From Chloroflexota bacterium (GTDB lineage: Bacteria > Chloroflexota > Anaerolineae > JAAYEA01): a stretch of DNA of 64,000 nucleotides. The translations under genes were made by a program, and so were the position numbers. This document shows positions 49,247 to 56,326 of this stretch, piece by piece; position 1 is the first letter of the stretch, and each line of letters opens with the position of its first letter. Under the pieces are notes generated by a model. The model saw nothing but the letters and a program-made list of their open reading frames with translations. It was not told the origin of the DNA and ran no database searches. The stretch lies in contig JAIOAV010000004.1 in NCBI GenBank assembly GCA_019873665.1, positions 46,043 through 110,042 of the forward strand. The letters are read 5' to 3'.

Positions 49247-50050
49247 CTACAGCGCTGCAGAGGATTGCAGGAAACTCGTCAGCACCTGGTTAAAACGCTC
49301 CGTCTCACTCAGCATGGGAAAGTGACGTGATTGAGCCATGATCTCGATGTGGGCGTGCGGAATCCGTTCGGCGATAACCTGCGCCTGATTGGGGTTGACA
49401 ACGCCGTCGCGCGCGCCATAGATGCCCAGTACCGGCACCTGTACCTCATGCAGGCGTGGCCGCAGATCAACGTGACGCAGCGATGCAATGCTGTGAGAGA
49501 ACGACGCGATGGTTGACTGCGAGATATGTTCTATCATCTGCGAGTAGATGTCGCCTTCATTGGACACCAGGGGGGAATATCCCCATAGCACAGCCTTCAG
49601 GAGCGGCGGGTAGCGCCACAGAAGCCGAGCGATCCGCTCCTGGCCGGCGAGCTTCAAGGGAAGGCTCAACGAGTTGCCATCCATCGGCGAGCCGACGACG
49701 GCAACCCGGCTGACGCGCTGCGGATAGTCCAGCGCCAGGCTCATGGCGACCGTGCCGCCCATGGAGTGGCCAAACAGCGGCGCCTGCCGAATGCCCAGTT
49801 CGTCCATGAACTGGATCACCATCGAGATATAATCGCCGATCTGGTAGGTTTCCTGGTGCTTGTCAGATTCGCCAAAGCCCCAGAAGTCCAGGGCATAGAC
49901 CCGGCGCGGCATGTTGTGATCCAAGTACTCCATGAAACCGCGCCAGAAACGCCATGAGCCCAGCCAGCAGTGCAGCAGGATAAGCGGCGCCCCGCGGCGT
50001 CCCACAACTTCGTAGTGTAATATCCCCTGTTGCGTCATCAGGGAGCTCAT
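49247..50050 (-). CDS. Alpha/beta hydrolase
   Basis: LILLHCWLGSWRFWRGFMEYL; APLFGHSMGGTVAMSLALDYP; catalytic H in AQSRHFPMLSE. Confidence 0.92.
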   Translation of the reverse strand: MSSLMTQQGILHYEVVGRRGAPLILLHCWLGSWRFWRGFMEYLDHNMPRRVYALDFWGFGESDKHQETYQIGDYISMVIQFMDELGIRQAPLFGHSMGGTVAMSLALDYPQRVSRVAVVGSPMDGNSLSLPLKLAGQERIARLLWRYPPLLKAVLWGYSPLVSNEGDIYSQMIEHISQSTIASFSHSIASLRHVDLRPRLHEVQVPVLGIYGARDGVVNPNQAQVIAERIPHAHIEIMAQSRHFPMLSETERFNQVLTSFLQSSAAL

Positions 50051-50139
50051 CGCAGACACCTCTACAGAGAGATCATCCAGTTGAGAAGACGTAAACGAAG
50101 CGCAACGAGATGCGTCTCGCCTCGAAGGTCGTTGTGCCA

Positions 50140-50168
50140 GAGTATAGCACACTCCGCCGCCCTGCCAA
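50140..50168 (-). promoter_or_regulatory. Candidate promoter for alpha/beta hydrolase (divergent)
   Basis: Minus strand TTGGCA-N17-TATACT. Confidence 0.55.
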
Positions 50169-50184
50169 AAGTGCCCTCAGGCAC

Positions 50185-50212
50185 TTGCACGGCGCGCCGA
50201 TTCCGCTATACT
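50185..50212 (+). promoter_or_regulatory. Candidate promoter for glycosyltransferase operon (divergent)
   Basis: TTGCAC-N16-TATACT; GGAGGAGAG then ATG 50240. Confidence 0.5.
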
Positions 50213-50239
50213 ACGGGAACTCGGAGGAGAGTGCAAAGC

Positions 50240-51343
50240 ATGCGCGTGCTGTTGATCTCAAAAGCGTGCGTGGTGGGCGCGTATCAGACCAAGCTGGAAG
50301 AGCTGGCACGTTACCCTGATATGGACTTGCATGTGATTGTGCCGCCTTACTGGCGCGAGGGGAATGCACGGATCACTCTGGAACGCGCGCATACATCCGG
50401 TTATCGCCTGCATGTGGAGCCGATGGCACTGAACGGTCACTTTCACTCCCACTTCTATCCCTTCCTCGGCCACCGCATCCGCGAGCTGCGTCCGGACATC
50501 GTCCACATGGATGAGGAGCCGTATAACTTGGCCACATGGCTCGCCCTCCGCGCTGCCGCGCATCATCATGCCAGGGCGCTCTTCTTCACCTGGCAGAACC
50601 TGCAACGCACCTATCCCGTCCCGTTCCGCTGGTTCGAGCGCGAGAACTACCGCCGCGCCCACTATGCGCTGGCCGGAAACAACGAGGCGGTGCAGGTCCT
50701 GCGCGCCAAGGGATACAGCGGGCCGGTGAAGGTCATTGCGCAATTCGGCGTTGATCCGAACCTCTATCGGTCACTTCCGGAGCGGCATGCGGTGCGCCAC
50801 TTCACCATCGGCTATGTCGGCAGACTGGTGCCGGAAAAGGGGGTGCATCTCTTGCTGGAGGCCGCTGCCAAGCTGGATGGCGACTGGCGGTTGGAGATCG
50901 TCGGCGATGGGCCGGAGCGAGCGTCCCTGCAGGCGTTGGCAACGGAACAAGGCATCAGCGCGCGCGTCTCATTCGTGCCGCGCATACCTTCGACTGACGT
51001 GCCAGCGCGCCTCAACCGGTTCGACGTGCTGGTGCTCCCCTCTCTGAGCCGACCAAACTGGAAAGAGCAGTTCGGGCGCATCTTGATCGAGGCGATGGCG
51101 TGCGAGACGCCGGTGCTTGGCGCCGACTCTGGCGAGATCCCGAACGTGATCGGCAACGCCGGGTTGATCTTTCCTGAAGGCGATGTGACGGCGCTGCGCG
51201 CGTACCTGCAGCGCCTTTGCGAAGACACCCGTCTTCGCGCCGATCTCGGCGCGGCAGGACGACAGCGCGTGCTGGCTCACTATACCCAGTCCAGGATTGC
51301 AGCTCTTACCTATAGCGTCTATCAGGAGATGTTGGGCAGATAG
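50240..51343 (+). CDS. Glycosyltransferase family 4 protein
   Basis: MRVLLISKACVVGAYQTKLEELARYPDMDLHVIVPP; FTIGYVGRLVPEKGVHLLLEAAAKL; ILIEAMACETPVLGADSGEIPNVIGNAGLIFPEGD. Confidence 0.93.
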   Translation: MRVLLISKACVVGAYQTKLEELARYPDMDLHVIVPPYWREGNARITLERAHTSGYRLHVEPMALNGHFHSHFYPFLGHRIRELRPDIVHMDEEPYNLATWLALRAAAHHHARALFFTWQNLQRTYPVPFRWFERENYRRAHYALAGNNEAVQVLRAKGYSGPVKVIAQFGVDPNLYRSLPERHAVRHFTIGYVGRLVPEKGVHLLLEAAAKLDGDWRLEIVGDGPERASLQALATEQGISARVSFVPRIPSTDVPARLNRFDVLVLPSLSRPNWKEQFGRILIEAMACETPVLGADSGEIPNVIGNAGLIFPEGDVTALRAYLQRLCEDTRLRADLGAAGRQRVLAHYTQSRIAALTYSVYQEMLGR

Positions 51344-51413
51344 GGATTTTCCCCTCAACTTGCGATAGCAGTATAATCGGTCAGATGGACGTGTGGGGAG
51401 AGGTTGTGCACAT

Positions 51414-52559
51414 TTGACAGGCAAGCAGATTGGGCTGGATGCGCACCTGTTGTCGTTGCGTCCCGGCTACCGGGCCGCAGGCGTTAGCCATCTCATCTAT
51501 CATCTGCTAATGCATTTGCCGGCGGCGGATGATGCCCTAAGCTATACGGCGTTTCTGTCAGAGCGATGCCCGAAGTTACCGGCACGGATACGCCAACAGG
51601 TCAGCGTTCTGCCCACCGGCCAGCCGCTGGTGCGGATCTTCTGGGAGCAATTTGTTGCGCCTGTGGCCGCGTGGCGACAGGGCATTGACCTCTGGCACGC
51701 TTTGGTCAACGTGCAGCCGATGCTTCTGCCGCGCCCCGCGATCGTTACCATCCCGGATCTGAGCTATCTGCTCTACCCAGAGTTATTCGAGCGCGGCAAG
51801 CGCCTCTACAATCGTCTCTTCGGCCGCTGGACTGCCAGGCGCGCACGGCACATCATCGCCATTTCACAGAGCACCAAAGAGGACATCGTGCGGCACTATC
51901 GCATCCCACCTGACAAGATAACCGTCATCTACCCCGGGATGGAGGAGAGATTCCATCCTGTGGACGATGCTGCCGCCGCGAGCGCTTTCCGCCTGCGCAA
52001 AGGGCTGCCGGAGAGTATCATCCTCTTTGTGGGCACCATTGAGCCTCGCAAGAATCTCAGCCGATTGTTGCAGGCGTTCGCCATGCTGCGCCGGGACGGT
52101 GATCTGCCGCACCATCTGGTGATCGGCGGCGGAAAGGGATGGATGTACGAACAGGTCTTTGCCCAAGTGCAGGAGCTGGGCCTGGGTGGTTGCGTGCACT
52201 TTGCAGGCTTCATCCAGCAGCAAGAGCTACCCGATTGGTTCCGGGCGGCAGACCTCTTTGTCTACCCCTCTCTCTTTGAGGGCTTCGGGCTGCCGCCGTT
52301 GGAGGCCCTGGCTTGCGGCACGCCGGTGATCGTATCCGATATCTCATCTCTGCCGGAAGTCGTCGGAGATGCGGCGCTGAAAGTGAACCCCTATCGTCCT
52401 GAGGAGATGGCGGCAGCCATGCGGCGCGTGCTGACCGATCATGCCCTGGCGGCTCAACTGCGGGCAGCGGGGCCACAGCAAGCGGCACGCTTCTCTTGGC
52501 AAAGGGCCGCGCAAGAGACAGCCTCTATCTATCGTCGCGTGTTGGAGCAGAGGGCCTGA
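51414..52559 (+). CDS. Glycosyltransferase family 4 (mannosyltransferase-like) protein
   Basis: [113 protein letters not shown] start with GGGGAGAGG upstream. Confidence 0.93.
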
Positions 52560-52560
52560 C

Positions 52561-53988
52561 ATGTACGCGAAAACGTGGAAGTGGCTCGGGCCGCTGATGG
52601 TCGTGTTGGATGCAATCCTCATCAACCTTGCCTTCTACCTGGCTTATCTGGTGCGCTATGAGCTGCAATGGTTCCGGGGAGTTGAGGAAGGTTTCTTTGT
52701 CCCCTTTGGCAGCTATCTCCCCGATGCAGCGATCCTGACAGCCATCCTGATCTTGGTCTACGTGGCCGAGGGCCTTTATGCCCCACGCCGAGGACGACCC
52801 TGGTTTGATGAGGTGTATATCATCTTTCGGGGAGCCGTTACAGGCATCGCCACCATGATCATCATCTCCCTCTTTGCCCGGCCAATGCTGCAATCGCGGC
52901 TGATCTTTGCCTACCATGCGGTTCTCATCGTCATCCTCCTCGGCGGCAGCCGTCTCGCCGTTGGCGCAATCATGAGCACGTTGCGTCGTCGCGGCATCGG
53001 AGTGGATCGCGTTCTCATCGTCGGCGCAGGCGAGGTGGGGCGCACAGTGATGCGCAATATCGTGGCCCGACCGGAGCTGGGCTACCAACTGGTTGGCTTT
53101 GTTGACGATGCACCCGAGAAGGCTCATACCGACCTGGGGCGTATCAAAGCGCTGGGGGATACTTCCGCGCTCCCCGAGCTGATCAGCCGCTATGGCATCA
53201 ATGAGGTGATCATCACCCTGCCATGGATGGCGCACCGCAAGGTGTTGAGCCTCATCACCCAGTGTGAACGCTCTCGAGTGCGCGCCCGGATCGTGCCTGA
53301 CCTCTTCCAATTGAGCTTGAGCCAGGTGGACATTGACGATATGAACGGCCTACCGTTGATCGGCATTCGCGAGCCGTCCATTCGCGGCTGGAAGCTGGCC
53401 GTCAAGCGGGGCATTGACCTCGTTGGGGCGACATTGCTGCTGATCCTGCTTGCCCCCCTGTTGGGGTTGATCGCCCTGCTCATCAAGCTAGATTCACCGG
53501 GGCCGATCATCTTCCGACAGGTGCGCGTGGGACGAAATGGCCGAGAGTTCACATGCTACAAGTTCCGCACTATGGTGGCAGATGCAGAGCAGCGACAGCC
53601 GGCTCTGGAGCAGGTCAATCCATCCAATGGCCCCTGGTTCAAGCTCCGCGACGACCCGCGACGCACTCGCGTCGGGCGTTTTCTGCGCCGTGCCAGCCTC
53701 GATGAGTTGCCGCAGCTTTACAACGTGCTCCGTGGCGAGATGAGCCTGATCGGGCCGCGGCCCGGCACGCCGCAAGAGGTTGCCAAGTACCAGCCCTGGC
53801 ACATGCGGCGGCTCAGCGCATCTCCAGGCATGACCGGTCTCTGGCAAGTCAGCGGTCGCAGCGAGCTGACCTTTGACGAGATGGTTCTCTTGGACCTGTA
53901 TTATGTCGAGAATTGGTCCCTGTTTCTCGACTTTAAGATCCTCCTGCGCACAGGTCCGGCTGTGTTTTCCGGACGAGGCGCGTTCTAG
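52561..53988 (+). CDS. Exopolysaccharide polyprenyl glycosylphosphotransferase (WbaP/WcaJ-like)
   Basis: Five-TM N-terminus, CoA-binding-like middle domain, KRGIDLVGATLLLILLAPLLGLIALLIKLDSPGPIIFRQVRVGRNGREFTCYKFRTM...DELPQLYNVLRGEMSLIGPRPGTP. Confidence 0.96.
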   Translation: MYAKTWKWLGPLMVVLDAILINLAFYLAYLVRYELQWFRGVEEGFFVPFGSYLPDAAILTAILILVYVAEGLYAPRRGRPWFDEVYIIFRGAVTGIATMIIISLFARPMLQSRLIFAYHAVLIVILLGGSRLAVGAIMSTLRRRGIGVDRVLIVGAGEVGRTVMRNIVARPELGYQLVGFVDDAPEKAHTDLGRIKALGDTSALPELISRYGINEVIITLPWMAHRKVLSLITQCERSRVRARIVPDLFQLSLSQVDIDDMNGLPLIGIREPSIRGWKLAVKRGIDLVGATLLLILLAPLLGLIALLIKLDSPGPIIFRQVRVGRNGREFTCYKFRTMVADAEQRQPALEQVNPSNGPWFKLRDDPRRTRVGRFLRRASLDELPQLYNVLRGEMSLIGPRPGTPQEVAKYQPWHMRRLSASPGMTGLWQVSGRSELTFDEMVLLDLYYVENWSLFLDFKILLRTGPAVFSGRGAF

Positions 53989-54089: not shown

Positions 54090-55103
54090 ATGAACCTGTA
54101 TGGTAAGGATTTGATCTGCACGCAAGAGTGGAAGATAAAGGAGCTGGAGGCGGTGCTGGAGCTGGCGGCCAAGATGAAACGCGACCGCTATTCGCCACGC
54201 TGGACCAGCTTGCTGCAGCACAGGACATTCCTGATGTTCTTCTACAATCCGTCGGTGCGCACACGCCAGTCGTTCGAGACGGCAGCGACCGAGTTGGGCG
54301 GGCATGCCCAGTTCTTGGAGCCACGCGCCATGCGCCTGAAAACCGCCACCACGGCTGGCGAGACGATTGAGGACGCAGCCAACGTCATGAGCCGTTTCGC
54401 CCATGGCCTGGGGATTCGCATCCTGGAAGACCAGATCAGCGCATATGGTGAGGGAGATGACCTGCTGCGCGAATATGCCAAATGGTGCACCATCCCGGTC
54501 ATCTCGATGGCGCATGACAAATTCCACCCCTGCCAGGGGCTGGCAGACCTGATGGGACTACACACGCATCTTGGAGATGTCAAGGGGAAAAAGACGCTGG
54601 TAACATGGGGCAGCGGCGCGCTGGTACGCTCGTGGTGCTCCCCGCAAGAGTACATGCTGATCACGTCGCGCTTTGGCATGAACGTTACCCTCGCCTATCC
54701 GGAGGGTTATGATCTCGATCCAGAGGTGATCGCGCAGGTGAAAGCCAATTGCGCGCAGAACGGCACTAGCTTTGAGATCGTGCATGACTCGGTTTCTGGC
54801 TATGACGGGGCCGATGTGGTCTATTCGCGCAACTGGATGAGCCCTGTCGCCTATGCCAGCGGCGAGCTGGACAAGGCCAGCGAGCGGGCCAAAGCTGCGC
54901 TGCATCCCGGCTGGATCACCGACGCCGCACGGATGAAGCGCACCAACAATGCGCTCTTTATCCACCCGATGCCAGTGGACCGAGGCTCAGAAGTGACGGA
55001 CGAGATCGCCAGTGGGCCGCGCTCTATCATCTACGACGTGGCGGAAAACCGCCTGCACGTGCAAAAGGCGCTCATGGCACTCACGATGACGGACGCGCTA
55101 TAG
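54090..55103 (+). CDS. Aspartate/ornithine carbamoyltransferase-family protein, knotted (YgeW/AOTCase)-like, atypical substrate loop
   Basis: FFYNPSVRTRQSFETAATELGGHAQFLEP; HPCQGLADLMGLHTHLGDVKGKKTLVTWGSG; LAYPEGYDLDPEVIAQVKANC; FIHPMPVDRGSEVTDEI. Confidence 0.88.
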   Translation: MNLYGKDLICTQEWKIKELEAVLELAAKMKRDRYSPRWTSLLQHRTFLMFFYNPSVRTRQSFETAATELGGHAQFLEPRAMRLKTATTAGETIEDAANVMSRFAHGLGIRILEDQISAYGEGDDLLREYAKWCTIPVISMAHDKFHPCQGLADLMGLHTHLGDVKGKKTLVTWGSGALVRSWCSPQEYMLITSRFGMNVTLAYPEGYDLDPEVIAQVKANCAQNGTSFEIVHDSVSGYDGADVVYSRNWMSPVAYASGELDKASERAKAALHPGWITDAARMKRTNNALFIHPMPVDRGSEVTDEIASGPRSIIYDVAENRLHVQKALMALTMTDAL

Positions 55104-55114
55104 GGTGAACGCGG

Positions 55115-55142
55115 GCGCCCCGCGATTGCCGGGGCGCTTTTC
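55115..55142. terminator. Intrinsic terminator between convergent genes
   Basis: GCGCCCCG-cgattgc-CGGGGCGC-TTTT. Confidence 0.85.
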
Positions 55143-56326
55143 TATCTGCGCCAGAGCTCACGACAGATGGCGGCATAGCCGGCGCTGGCCTGCGCCAGCT
55201 CCTCGAGGCTGATGGACTCGTCGGTCACATGAGCGCTAGCCTCAGTGCCGGGGCCAAAACCGATAGTGGGGATACGCGCCACGCCGGCCGAGTAACTGCC
55301 GTTGGTGCAGAAATCATATTTGGTGATCTGCGGGCGCAAGCCGATGGAGAGGAGGGCAGCTTGCGCCTTTTGCACGAGCGGGTGATCCGCTGGCAGCTTC
55401 CACGCCGGCGGGAAGGCGACGATGGTCTCTTGGCGCCCGCTGGCCGTCACCAGCGTGTCCTGCGCGAGCTCGACATTAGCGCGGAAATCAGGGTCTTGCG
55501 CGGCCAGTGCCGCGATCTCGGCATGGAAGCGCGCCCATACCGAGCTCGGGCTTTCCCCGGGCAGCAGGCGCAGGTCATAGCTGAGCCGTGCCGCATACGG
55601 CACAATCGAGTCCACCGGCTGTGGCGACGAGTGCAAGCCGATCAGCTCAATGATCCCCGGCCCCAGAAAGTCATCCGTGCGGGGCGGCAAGGCGCGCAGA
55701 CGCTGGATCAGTGGCACCGCCTGATACACGGCGTTGATACCTTTTTCTGGATGGGCTGAGTGTGCGGCCTTGCCCTGAATATCCACGAACACGCGCGTCC
55801 GACCCCGCTGCCCGCGCTTGATGTTCAGCTCCGACGCCTCGCCAATGATGACATAGTCGGGCTGGATGCCGCGCGTCGCCAGCTCGTCCAGCGCCTTGCC
55901 GAGGGTATAGCCCTCAAAACGCTCCTCCCAACTGGTGCCGGTGATGACCAACACCCCGGCAAACGAGGACGTAGCGAGCGTAGTGGCAGCGTGGAGCATG
56001 GCGGCGAGCGCACCCTTCATGTCACTCGCGCCCCGACCATAGAGGCGGCCCGCCTCGATCTCGCCCGCGAACGGCGGATGCCGCCAGCCCGCGGCGTCCG
56101 CCTCCACCGTGTCAATGTGGCTGTCCATAAGCACCACAGGGCCATCGCCCCGCTGCAATACGGCGATCACCGTATAATAATCGTTCACCCACGCCTCAAA
56201 GCCCAGCGCCTGCAGATAGCCCCGCACGAAATCTGCGACCTGGGCCTCATGGCCGGTCACGCTGGGAATGCGCAGCAGACTCTGCGCCAACATCGTTACC
56301 TCGCGCAACTTAACATCAGGGCTCAT
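55142..56326 (-). CDS. M20-family metallohydrolase (ArgE/DapE/YgeY-like deacylase)
   Basis: VVLMDSHIDTVEADAAGWRHPPFAGEIEAGRLYGRGASDMKGALAAMLHA; IIGEASELNIKRGQRGRTRVFVDIQGKAAHSAHPEKGINAVY; IPTIGFGPGTEASAHVTDE. Confidence 0.93.
   Translation of the reverse strand: MSPDVKLREVTMLAQSLLRIPSVTGHEAQVADFVRGYLQALGFEAWVNDYYTVIAVLQRGDGPVVLMDSHIDTVEADAAGWRHPPFAGEIEAGRLYGRGASDMKGALAAMLHAATTLATSSFAGVLVITGTSWEERFEGYTLGKALDELATRGIQPDYVIIGEASELNIKRGQRGRTRVFVDIQGKAAHSAHPEKGINAVYQAVPLIQRLRALPPRTDDFLGPGIIELIGLHSSPQPVDSIVPYAARLSYDLRLLPGESPSSVWARFHAEIAALAAQDPDFRANVELAQDTLVTASGRQETIVAFPPAWKLPADHPLVQKAQAALLSIGLRPQITKYDFCTNGSYSAGVARIPTIGFGPGTEASAHVTDESISLEELAQASAGYAAICRELWRR

Follow-up and report, generated by a model that had tools for sequence, protein, structure and literature searches.

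A conserved, unnamed carbamoyltransferase clade with a probable catabolic role in reductive purine degradation

In a 64,000-nucleotide stretch of a Chloroflexota bacterium of the class Anaerolineae (assembly GCA_019873665.1, contig JAIOAV010000004.1, positions 46,043 to 110,042 of the forward strand; hereafter the window), we analysed a gene for a 337-residue carbamoyltransferase, here called TC, which faces a gene for an M20 metallohydrolase of the YgeY type. Sequence comparison places TC in a conserved, unnamed and widespread clade of its own. TC probably has a catabolic role in the reductive, anaerobic degradation of purines and uric acid, where it would remove by phosphorolysis a ureido group of 2,3-diureidopropionate or of its mono-ureido product. 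While its placement in this pathway is well supported by gene context, the membership of the pathway in the window's organism, the direction of the reaction and the substrate are what we infer for TC. The two genes are the following:

54090-55103, plus strand: TC, 337-aa carbamoyltransferase of the unnamed clade (OTCace_N/OTCace Pfam matches, NCBIfam scores, tree and AlphaFold model).
55142-56326, minus strand: 394-aa M20 metallohydrolase of the YgeY type, which converges on TC (PRK13004, 338.3 bits, cut-off 321).

The two open reading frames converge with 38 nt between them. An initial annotation, made from the sequence alone, had already described both, and the open reading frame listing and Pfam matches confirmed them together with all the quoted motifs: SVRTR, HPCQGLADL, HPMPVDRGSEVTDEI and PEGYDLDPEV in TC, and SDMKGALAAML, RGQRGRTRVFVDIQGKAAHS and YDFCTNGSYSAG in the M20 protein. 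TC matches OTCace_N (120.6 bits) and OTCace (115 bits), and its neighbour matches Peptidase_M20 (90.9 bits) and M20_dimer (53.9 bits), in each case far over the gathering score. The proposed likeness of the neighbour to YgeY stands, as the protein passes PRK13004; it misses a second YgeY model, TIGR03526 (205 bits, cut-off 321.5). It is a diverged member, with 338 bits vs up to 480 in the class, and shares 37% identity with the copy of another Chloroflexota genome, G017.

TC falls under every named-family cut-off of NCBIfam. Its best model is N-acetylornithine carbamoyltransferase (AOTCase; PRK04523, 247 bits vs 288); it scores 208-223 bits against the ornithine carbamoyltransferase (OTC) models (cut-offs 281-306) and 94.6-103 bits against those of aspartate carbamoyltransferase (ATC; cut-offs 237-263). 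Membership of the YgeW group, suggested in the initial annotation, is not borne out by TIGR03316 (117.9 bits, cut-off 500) or PRK07200 (120.7 bits, cut-off 453). The motifs differ as well. The OTC signature, DxxxSMG with HCLP, is not in TC, whose clade keeps YSRNWMSP and HPMP; the ATC signature RxQxxER is not in its 240's region, nor does TC have HPLP; its 80's loop, which reads EPRAMRLKTATTAGET, does not carry the substrate-contact tryptophan of AOTCase; and TC, at 337 residues, is shorter than YgeW (about 390-400 aa) and has neither its additional helices at the termini nor its longer 240's loop. Thus TC has neither the ornithine nor the aspartate determinants but keeps the carbamoyl-phosphate motifs intact, the determinants and the roles of SxRTR and of AOTCase Lys252 being taken from PMC4581275. 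The view that this carbamoyltransferase is atypical was therefore correct. The sites concerned are:

54252-54266, plus strand: SVRTR, residues 55-59, the SxRTR carbamoyl-phosphate motif (S55, R57, T58 and R59 invariant in 50 orthologues).
54525-54539, plus strand: HPCQG, residues 146-150, the HPxQ carbamoyl-phosphate motif (H146, P147 and Q149 invariant in 50 orthologues).
54828-54830, plus strand: Arg247, where the 240's loop (YSRNW) begins, invariant in 50 orthologues.
54963-54974, plus strand: HPMP, residues 292-295, replacing the HCLP of OTC and YgeW or the HPLP of ATC (compared in 50 orthologues).

Across these orthologues the carbamoyl-phosphate residues S55, R57-R59, R110, H146, Q149 and R321 are invariant, as are R82, R180, R247, D297 and R298. 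Arg247 aligns with Lys252 of N-acetylornithine transcarbamylase and with an aspartate of OTC (alignment to 3m5c and 1a1s). H292, P295 and the D-R that follows are likewise invariant, and P293 and M294 are kept in at least 90%, so that HPMP is no local oddity. PEGYDLDPEV, by contrast, had been read as a sign of the YgeW or knotted group; since Pyrococcus OTC carries PEGYEPDEKV at the same place, it is a weak clue and not specific to YgeW. The AlphaFold2 model of TC (pLDDT 95.6) has N-acetylornithine transcarbamylase 3kzm as its best fold match in the PDB (TM 0.88, 35% identity), followed by Pyrococcus OTC 1a1s (TM 0.84). It ends in a single C-terminal helix (314-333). In the alignment, the TC counterparts of the two knotted-transcarbamylase loops, the 120's and the proline-rich loop, are of about AOTCase length, the second not being proline-rich.

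A search of GTDB contigs retrieved 80 relatives of TC at 58-81% identity, from Chloroflexota, Elusimicrobia, Eisenbacteria, Caldisericota/Cryosericota, Cloacimonadota, Thorarchaeota, Heimdallarchaeota and others. In maximum-likelihood trees TC forms one clade on a long stem (support 100/99 and 100/100), rather than a form part-way between OTCase and ATCase. The free trees part it from the YgeW of E. coli and E. faecalis, while the approximately unbiased (AU) test keeps both a TC+YgeW grouping (p 0.197) and a TC+OTC grouping (p 0.055). Score, length and motifs lend no support to TC being an orthologue of YgeW; the tree alone would allow a distant sister relation. Chloroflexota carry a separate carbamoyltransferase of the YgeW lineage, TC3, which groups with YgeW at 99/92.

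The gene neighbourhoods are what ties the clade to purines. Counts were taken over the 80 TC-related loci, many of them on short contigs. The commonest partners are a second, YgeW-related carbamoyltransferase that we call TC2 (50/80 loci, directly upstream of TC in 46), which shares 34-41% identity with TC, and carbamate kinase (59/80, directly downstream in 50); a pyridoxal phosphate (PLP) enzyme is found in 35 loci. Most TC2 proteins (TC2a) group with the YgeW lineage, with support of 92/80-81 in earlier trees and 83/63 in a corrected tree, and a smaller set (TC2b) forms a separate clade. A purine-associated gene lies within 10 kb of TC in 29 of the 80 loci; partners of this type are YgeY, SsnA, D-hydantoinase (HyuA), YqeB, subunits of the xanthine dehydrogenase (XDH) type, XdhC-/MocA-like maturation proteins and adenine deaminase. 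Bmp-type transport proteins are also among the neighbours. Arginine genes are not found among the gene clusters common to these loci, though an OTC-like gene lies further downstream of TC in five of them. The proposed module of a carbamoyltransferase and a deacylase holds insofar as the pair recurs; the commonest partners of TC are, however, TC2 and carbamate kinase.

The key contig comes from another Chloroflexota genome (G018, C47; L158/L159), whose TC is 67% identical to that of the window. There the genes for TC2, TC, carbamate kinase and a pair of PLP enzymes are followed by those for an ABC/Bmp transporter, for YgfK (963 bits, cut-off 835), for a Se-XDH/XdhD-like protein, for SsnA (548 bits, cut-off 444) and for more XDH subunits. 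Other loci combine the same genes more compactly, as SsnA-YgeY-TC-carbamate kinase (L049) or as SsnA together with YgeY-TC2-TC-carbamate kinase (L024, L041). The substrate had been left unknown in the initial annotation; TC-orthologue loci with YgfK, XdhD-like proteins, SsnA and HyuA point to an intermediate that carries a ureido group and arises as purines are degraded reductively.

A survey of 249 genomes of the class, with true TC set at >=65% identity and TC2 at >60%, found TC in 36. TC2 is present in 30 of these 36 vs none of 36 TC-less genomes (Fisher p 2e-14, genomes treated as independent), the six with TC and no TC2 being the window's genome, G007 from the same family, G013, G028, G043 and G090. 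Carbamate kinase is present in all 36 TC genomes. YgeY, SsnA and two PLP families are common both with and without TC; the idea that the two PLP families are tied to TC alone was ruled out by their frequency in TC-less genomes, and they thus mark the wider pathway. In one TC-less Chloroflexota genome (G070, C133; L160:5138-15878) we observed a compact order, YgeY-TC3-carbamate kinase-PLP-PLP-SsnA, in which TC3 is the YgeW-lineage carbamoyltransferase; portions of this order recur in further TC-less genomes of the class. As TC-less genomes carry this set, the predicted reductive purine pathway must be widespread among members of the class, with TC as the marker of one variant. That YgeY simply takes the place of TC2 was ruled out, because YgeY is equally common whether or not TC2 is there and also occurs in TC-less genomes. 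In G028 (C272; L163:1296-2885), which has TC without TC2, carbamate kinase and a PLP enzyme flank a UacY/D-aminoacylase-like amidohydrolase, as if the latter replaced the YgeW-type step.

The window's genome holds three proteins of the carbamoyltransferase fold: TC, an OTC and pyrB. The OTC (L001) lies on another contig and has HCLP and an OTC-type TSMG loop, so TC is not the argF of this genome, and pyrB lies elsewhere, next to a pyrC-like gene. An ordinary argF/argE pair was ruled out by these two genes and by the differing motifs. TC is thus the only non-ornithine, non-aspartate carbamoyltransferase of the genome, in which TC2 was not found. Other contigs supply much of what the pathway would need: SsnA (508 bits vs cut-off 444), 8-oxoguanine deaminase (674 vs 532), D-hydantoinase (536 vs 393), carbamate kinase (394 vs 358; on another contig than TC and 73% identical to the TC-adjacent copy of L025), a threonine-synthase-like PLP protein 66% identical to that of the module, and the module's CysK-like PLP protein. 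Two genes from ssnA (C12; L110:7099-11000) lies a DHO_dh protein with a 4Fe-4S domain, by analogy a possible UacX-type yanthine reductase as in C. difficile. A histidine kinase with a receiver domain is also close to ssnA on this segment.

The pathway to which these genes point was worked out in 2025 (PMC12507026). As that study and PMC12990295 describe it, uric acid is dearomatised and its rings are opened in the reductive pathway by YgfK, XdhD and SsnA (PMC12507026). In E. coli, 2,3-diureidopropionate is formed when HyuA opens the ring of ureidomethyl-hydantoin (both papers). YgeW then phosphorolyses one ureido group, that at C2 according to PMC12507026 and that at C3 according to another study cited in PMC12990295, and the order of the two ureido cleavages is described there as an open question in the field. 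The other group is hydrolysed by YgeY and pyruvate is made by YgeX (both papers); YgeY and YgeX together convert albizziin to pyruvate in vitro (PMC12507026). In C. difficile, the hydrolase UacY is described as replacing YgeW. By its gene context TC would be expected to phosphorolyse a ureido group and to feed carbamate kinase. It would use phosphate to take one ureido group, at C2 or C3, off 2,3-diureidopropionate or mono-ureido-diaminopropionate, and the resulting carbamoyl phosphate would yield ATP via carbamate kinase. In the window's genome YgeY would hydrolyse the remaining ureido group as in E. coli, and a PLP lyase would split 2,3-diaminopropionate; TC and YgeY would form the simplest complete set, TC being the sole candidate carbamoyltransferase there. 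Candidates for the diaminopropionate ammonia-lyase (the YgeX role) are a PLP fold-type-II family of ~490 aa and the threonine-synthase-like protein. The former has no named NCBIfam equivalog (L011:4531-6027, L158:16036-17595), and both sit beside carbamate kinase and SsnA.

In most other TC organisms TC2 would work beside TC, and both ureido groups could yield ATP. That TC and TC2 phosphorolyse the two ureido groups of diureidopropionate, in a hitherto undescribed energy-conserving fermentation of purines by uncultured anaerobes, Thorarchaeota and Heimdallarchaeota among them, with TC2 lost and hydrolysis by YgeY regained in the window's lineage, is a tentative extension that we consider somewhat doubtful. 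Several observations weigh against the proposed role of TC. YgeY is present in most TC+TC2 genomes and in TC-less ones, and some operons keep YgeY, TC2 and TC together (L014, L020, L023, L024, L041, G017, G022), so that simply pairing each of the two ureido groups with one enzyme leaves these three-enzyme operons unexplained. Moreover, the pathway genes of the window's genome are scattered over contigs, none of its PLP proteins scored by family model is a YgeX equivalog, and the closest fold of TC is that of an anabolic N-acetylornithine enzyme.

This last resemblance, with the best NCBIfam model and the TC+OTC grouping that the AU test does not firmly reject, would suit an anabolic arginine enzyme of the acetyl- or succinyl-ornithine type. 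We consider this very unlikely, as the score lies under the cut-off, the 80's-loop tryptophan is absent, a true OTC is in the genome, and the neighbours are carbamate kinase and purine genes, with no common arginine gene despite the OTC-like gene of five loci. Another ureido route, such as phosphorolysis of N-carbamoyl-beta-alanine in reductive pyrimidine breakdown or of some other N-carbamoyl amino acid, is improbable, if a little less so: hydantoinase/dihydropyrimidinase and DHO_dh-type genes serve purine and pyrimidine routes alike, but SsnA, YgfK, XDH subunits, YqeB, adenine deaminase and 8-oxoguanine deaminase nearby point to purines. More weight, though still well short of the proposed role, goes to the view that TC serves the step of YgeY, on the second ureido group, after the first has been removed by TC2 in most genomes or, where TC2 is missing, by a UacY-type, D-aminoacylase-like hydrolase; in that case TC and YgeY of the window would be two options for a single step, one energy-saving and one hydrolytic. 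Because TC2a is sister to the YgeW lineage, TC2 is the likelier counterpart of YgeW, and both the UacY-like gene of G028 and a homologue 46% identical to its product in the window's genome (L149) fit this view. However, the support for TC2a with the YgeW lineage drops in the corrected tree, the UacY swap is seen in one genome only, and the window genome's own UacY-like gene sits among URO-D-like genes and not purine genes. We consider this view unlikely.

That TC and YgeY are mere chance neighbours in the window, as their convergent, non-operonic orientation and the lack of any other recognised pathway gene in the surrounding open reading frame list might suggest, is scarcely credible and is largely refuted by the counts. 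YgeY lies <=4 kb from TC in 8 of the 36 TC genomes (G000, G007, G017, G022, G081, G090, G105 and G125; binomial p about 5e-14, genomes treated as independent). Nine of the 80 loci, found across phyla, also have it close to TC. The gene pair thus recurs in other phyla, and the link drawn earlier with the ygeW-ygeY purine region of E. coli is upheld. Moreover, the window shares with G017 (L161) an upstream block that is not itself part of the pathway:

50030-53988, plus strand: syntenic marker block of a glycosyltransferase (50030-51343), a glycosyltransferase (51393-52559) and a sugar transferase (52441-53988).

In G017, which belongs to another Chloroflexota family, this block (63%, 49% and 59% identity) directly precedes YgeY-TC2-TC-carbamate kinase-PLP. 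The locus in the window accordingly appears to be a version of this gene order that has been reduced and rearranged.

Among known systems, YgeW (E. coli/E. faecalis, knotted; PMC12507026) resembles TC in its carbamoyltransferase fold, its motifs and a presumed ureido phosphorolysis, and is likewise found with carbamate kinase, YgeY, SsnA and YgfK. It differs by its 396 aa, HCLP and a 240's loop PKSW, against 337 aa, HPMP and SRNW, and the TC loop GSGALVRSWCSPQE stands where YgeW has the proline-rich AYSPSYGKPLSVPQ. Of AOTCase (3kzm) and succinylornithine transcarbamylase (SOTCase; 2g7m, 2fg6), AOTCase gives the best profile and fold and has a proline-rich loop whose TC counterpart is of the same length, but TC is without the 80's-loop tryptophan, has HPMP instead of HCLP and an arginine for Lys252, and shows no arginine gene context. 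OTC (argF/arcB) shares the fold and the carbamoyl-phosphate site; unlike it, TC is without DxxxSMG and HCLP and stays under every cut-off. The ureidoglycine carbamoyltransferase of Rubrobacter (PMC4016543) and the oxamate transcarbamylase AllFGH (PMC11326118) follow the principle proposed for TC, in which phosphorolysis of a purine-derived ureido compound and carbamate kinase conserve ATP; they belong to the oxidative allantoin route.

For the ureido step, the portions of the open-licence literature consulted name either a single carbamoyltransferase, YgeW, or the hydrolase UacY, and mention neither a second carbamoyltransferase family nor the TC clade. The latter would be an unnamed family tied to the reductive uric-acid pathway in many uncultured phyla, archaea included. 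Since TC-type proteins score best against acetylornithine carbamoyltransferase, its recognition likely corrects a misannotation. TC and TC2 would also make the order of ureido cleavage testable with two purified enzymes. If both ureido groups were phosphorolysed, the ATP derived from carbamoyl phosphate would be doubled per purine relative to the YgeW/YgeY route of E. coli, and many anaerobes of sediments and of deep-branching lineages would get more purine ATP than gut bacteria.

In the archaeal loci themselves, TC2 and TC stand in tandem in Thorarchaeota (L056, L060, L061, L066, L069), and in Heimdallarchaeota (L029) TC adjoins carbamate kinase with a hydantoinase nearby, which suggests purine fermentation in Asgard archaea. 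Long clusters of YqeB, an XDH FAD subunit, TC2, TC, carbamate kinase and adenine deaminase are found in Eisenbacteria and other bacteria (L063, L067, L070, L072, L079), several of which add a major facilitator superfamily transporter, MocA-/XdhC-like proteins, a Bmp ABC transporter and a transketolase pair.
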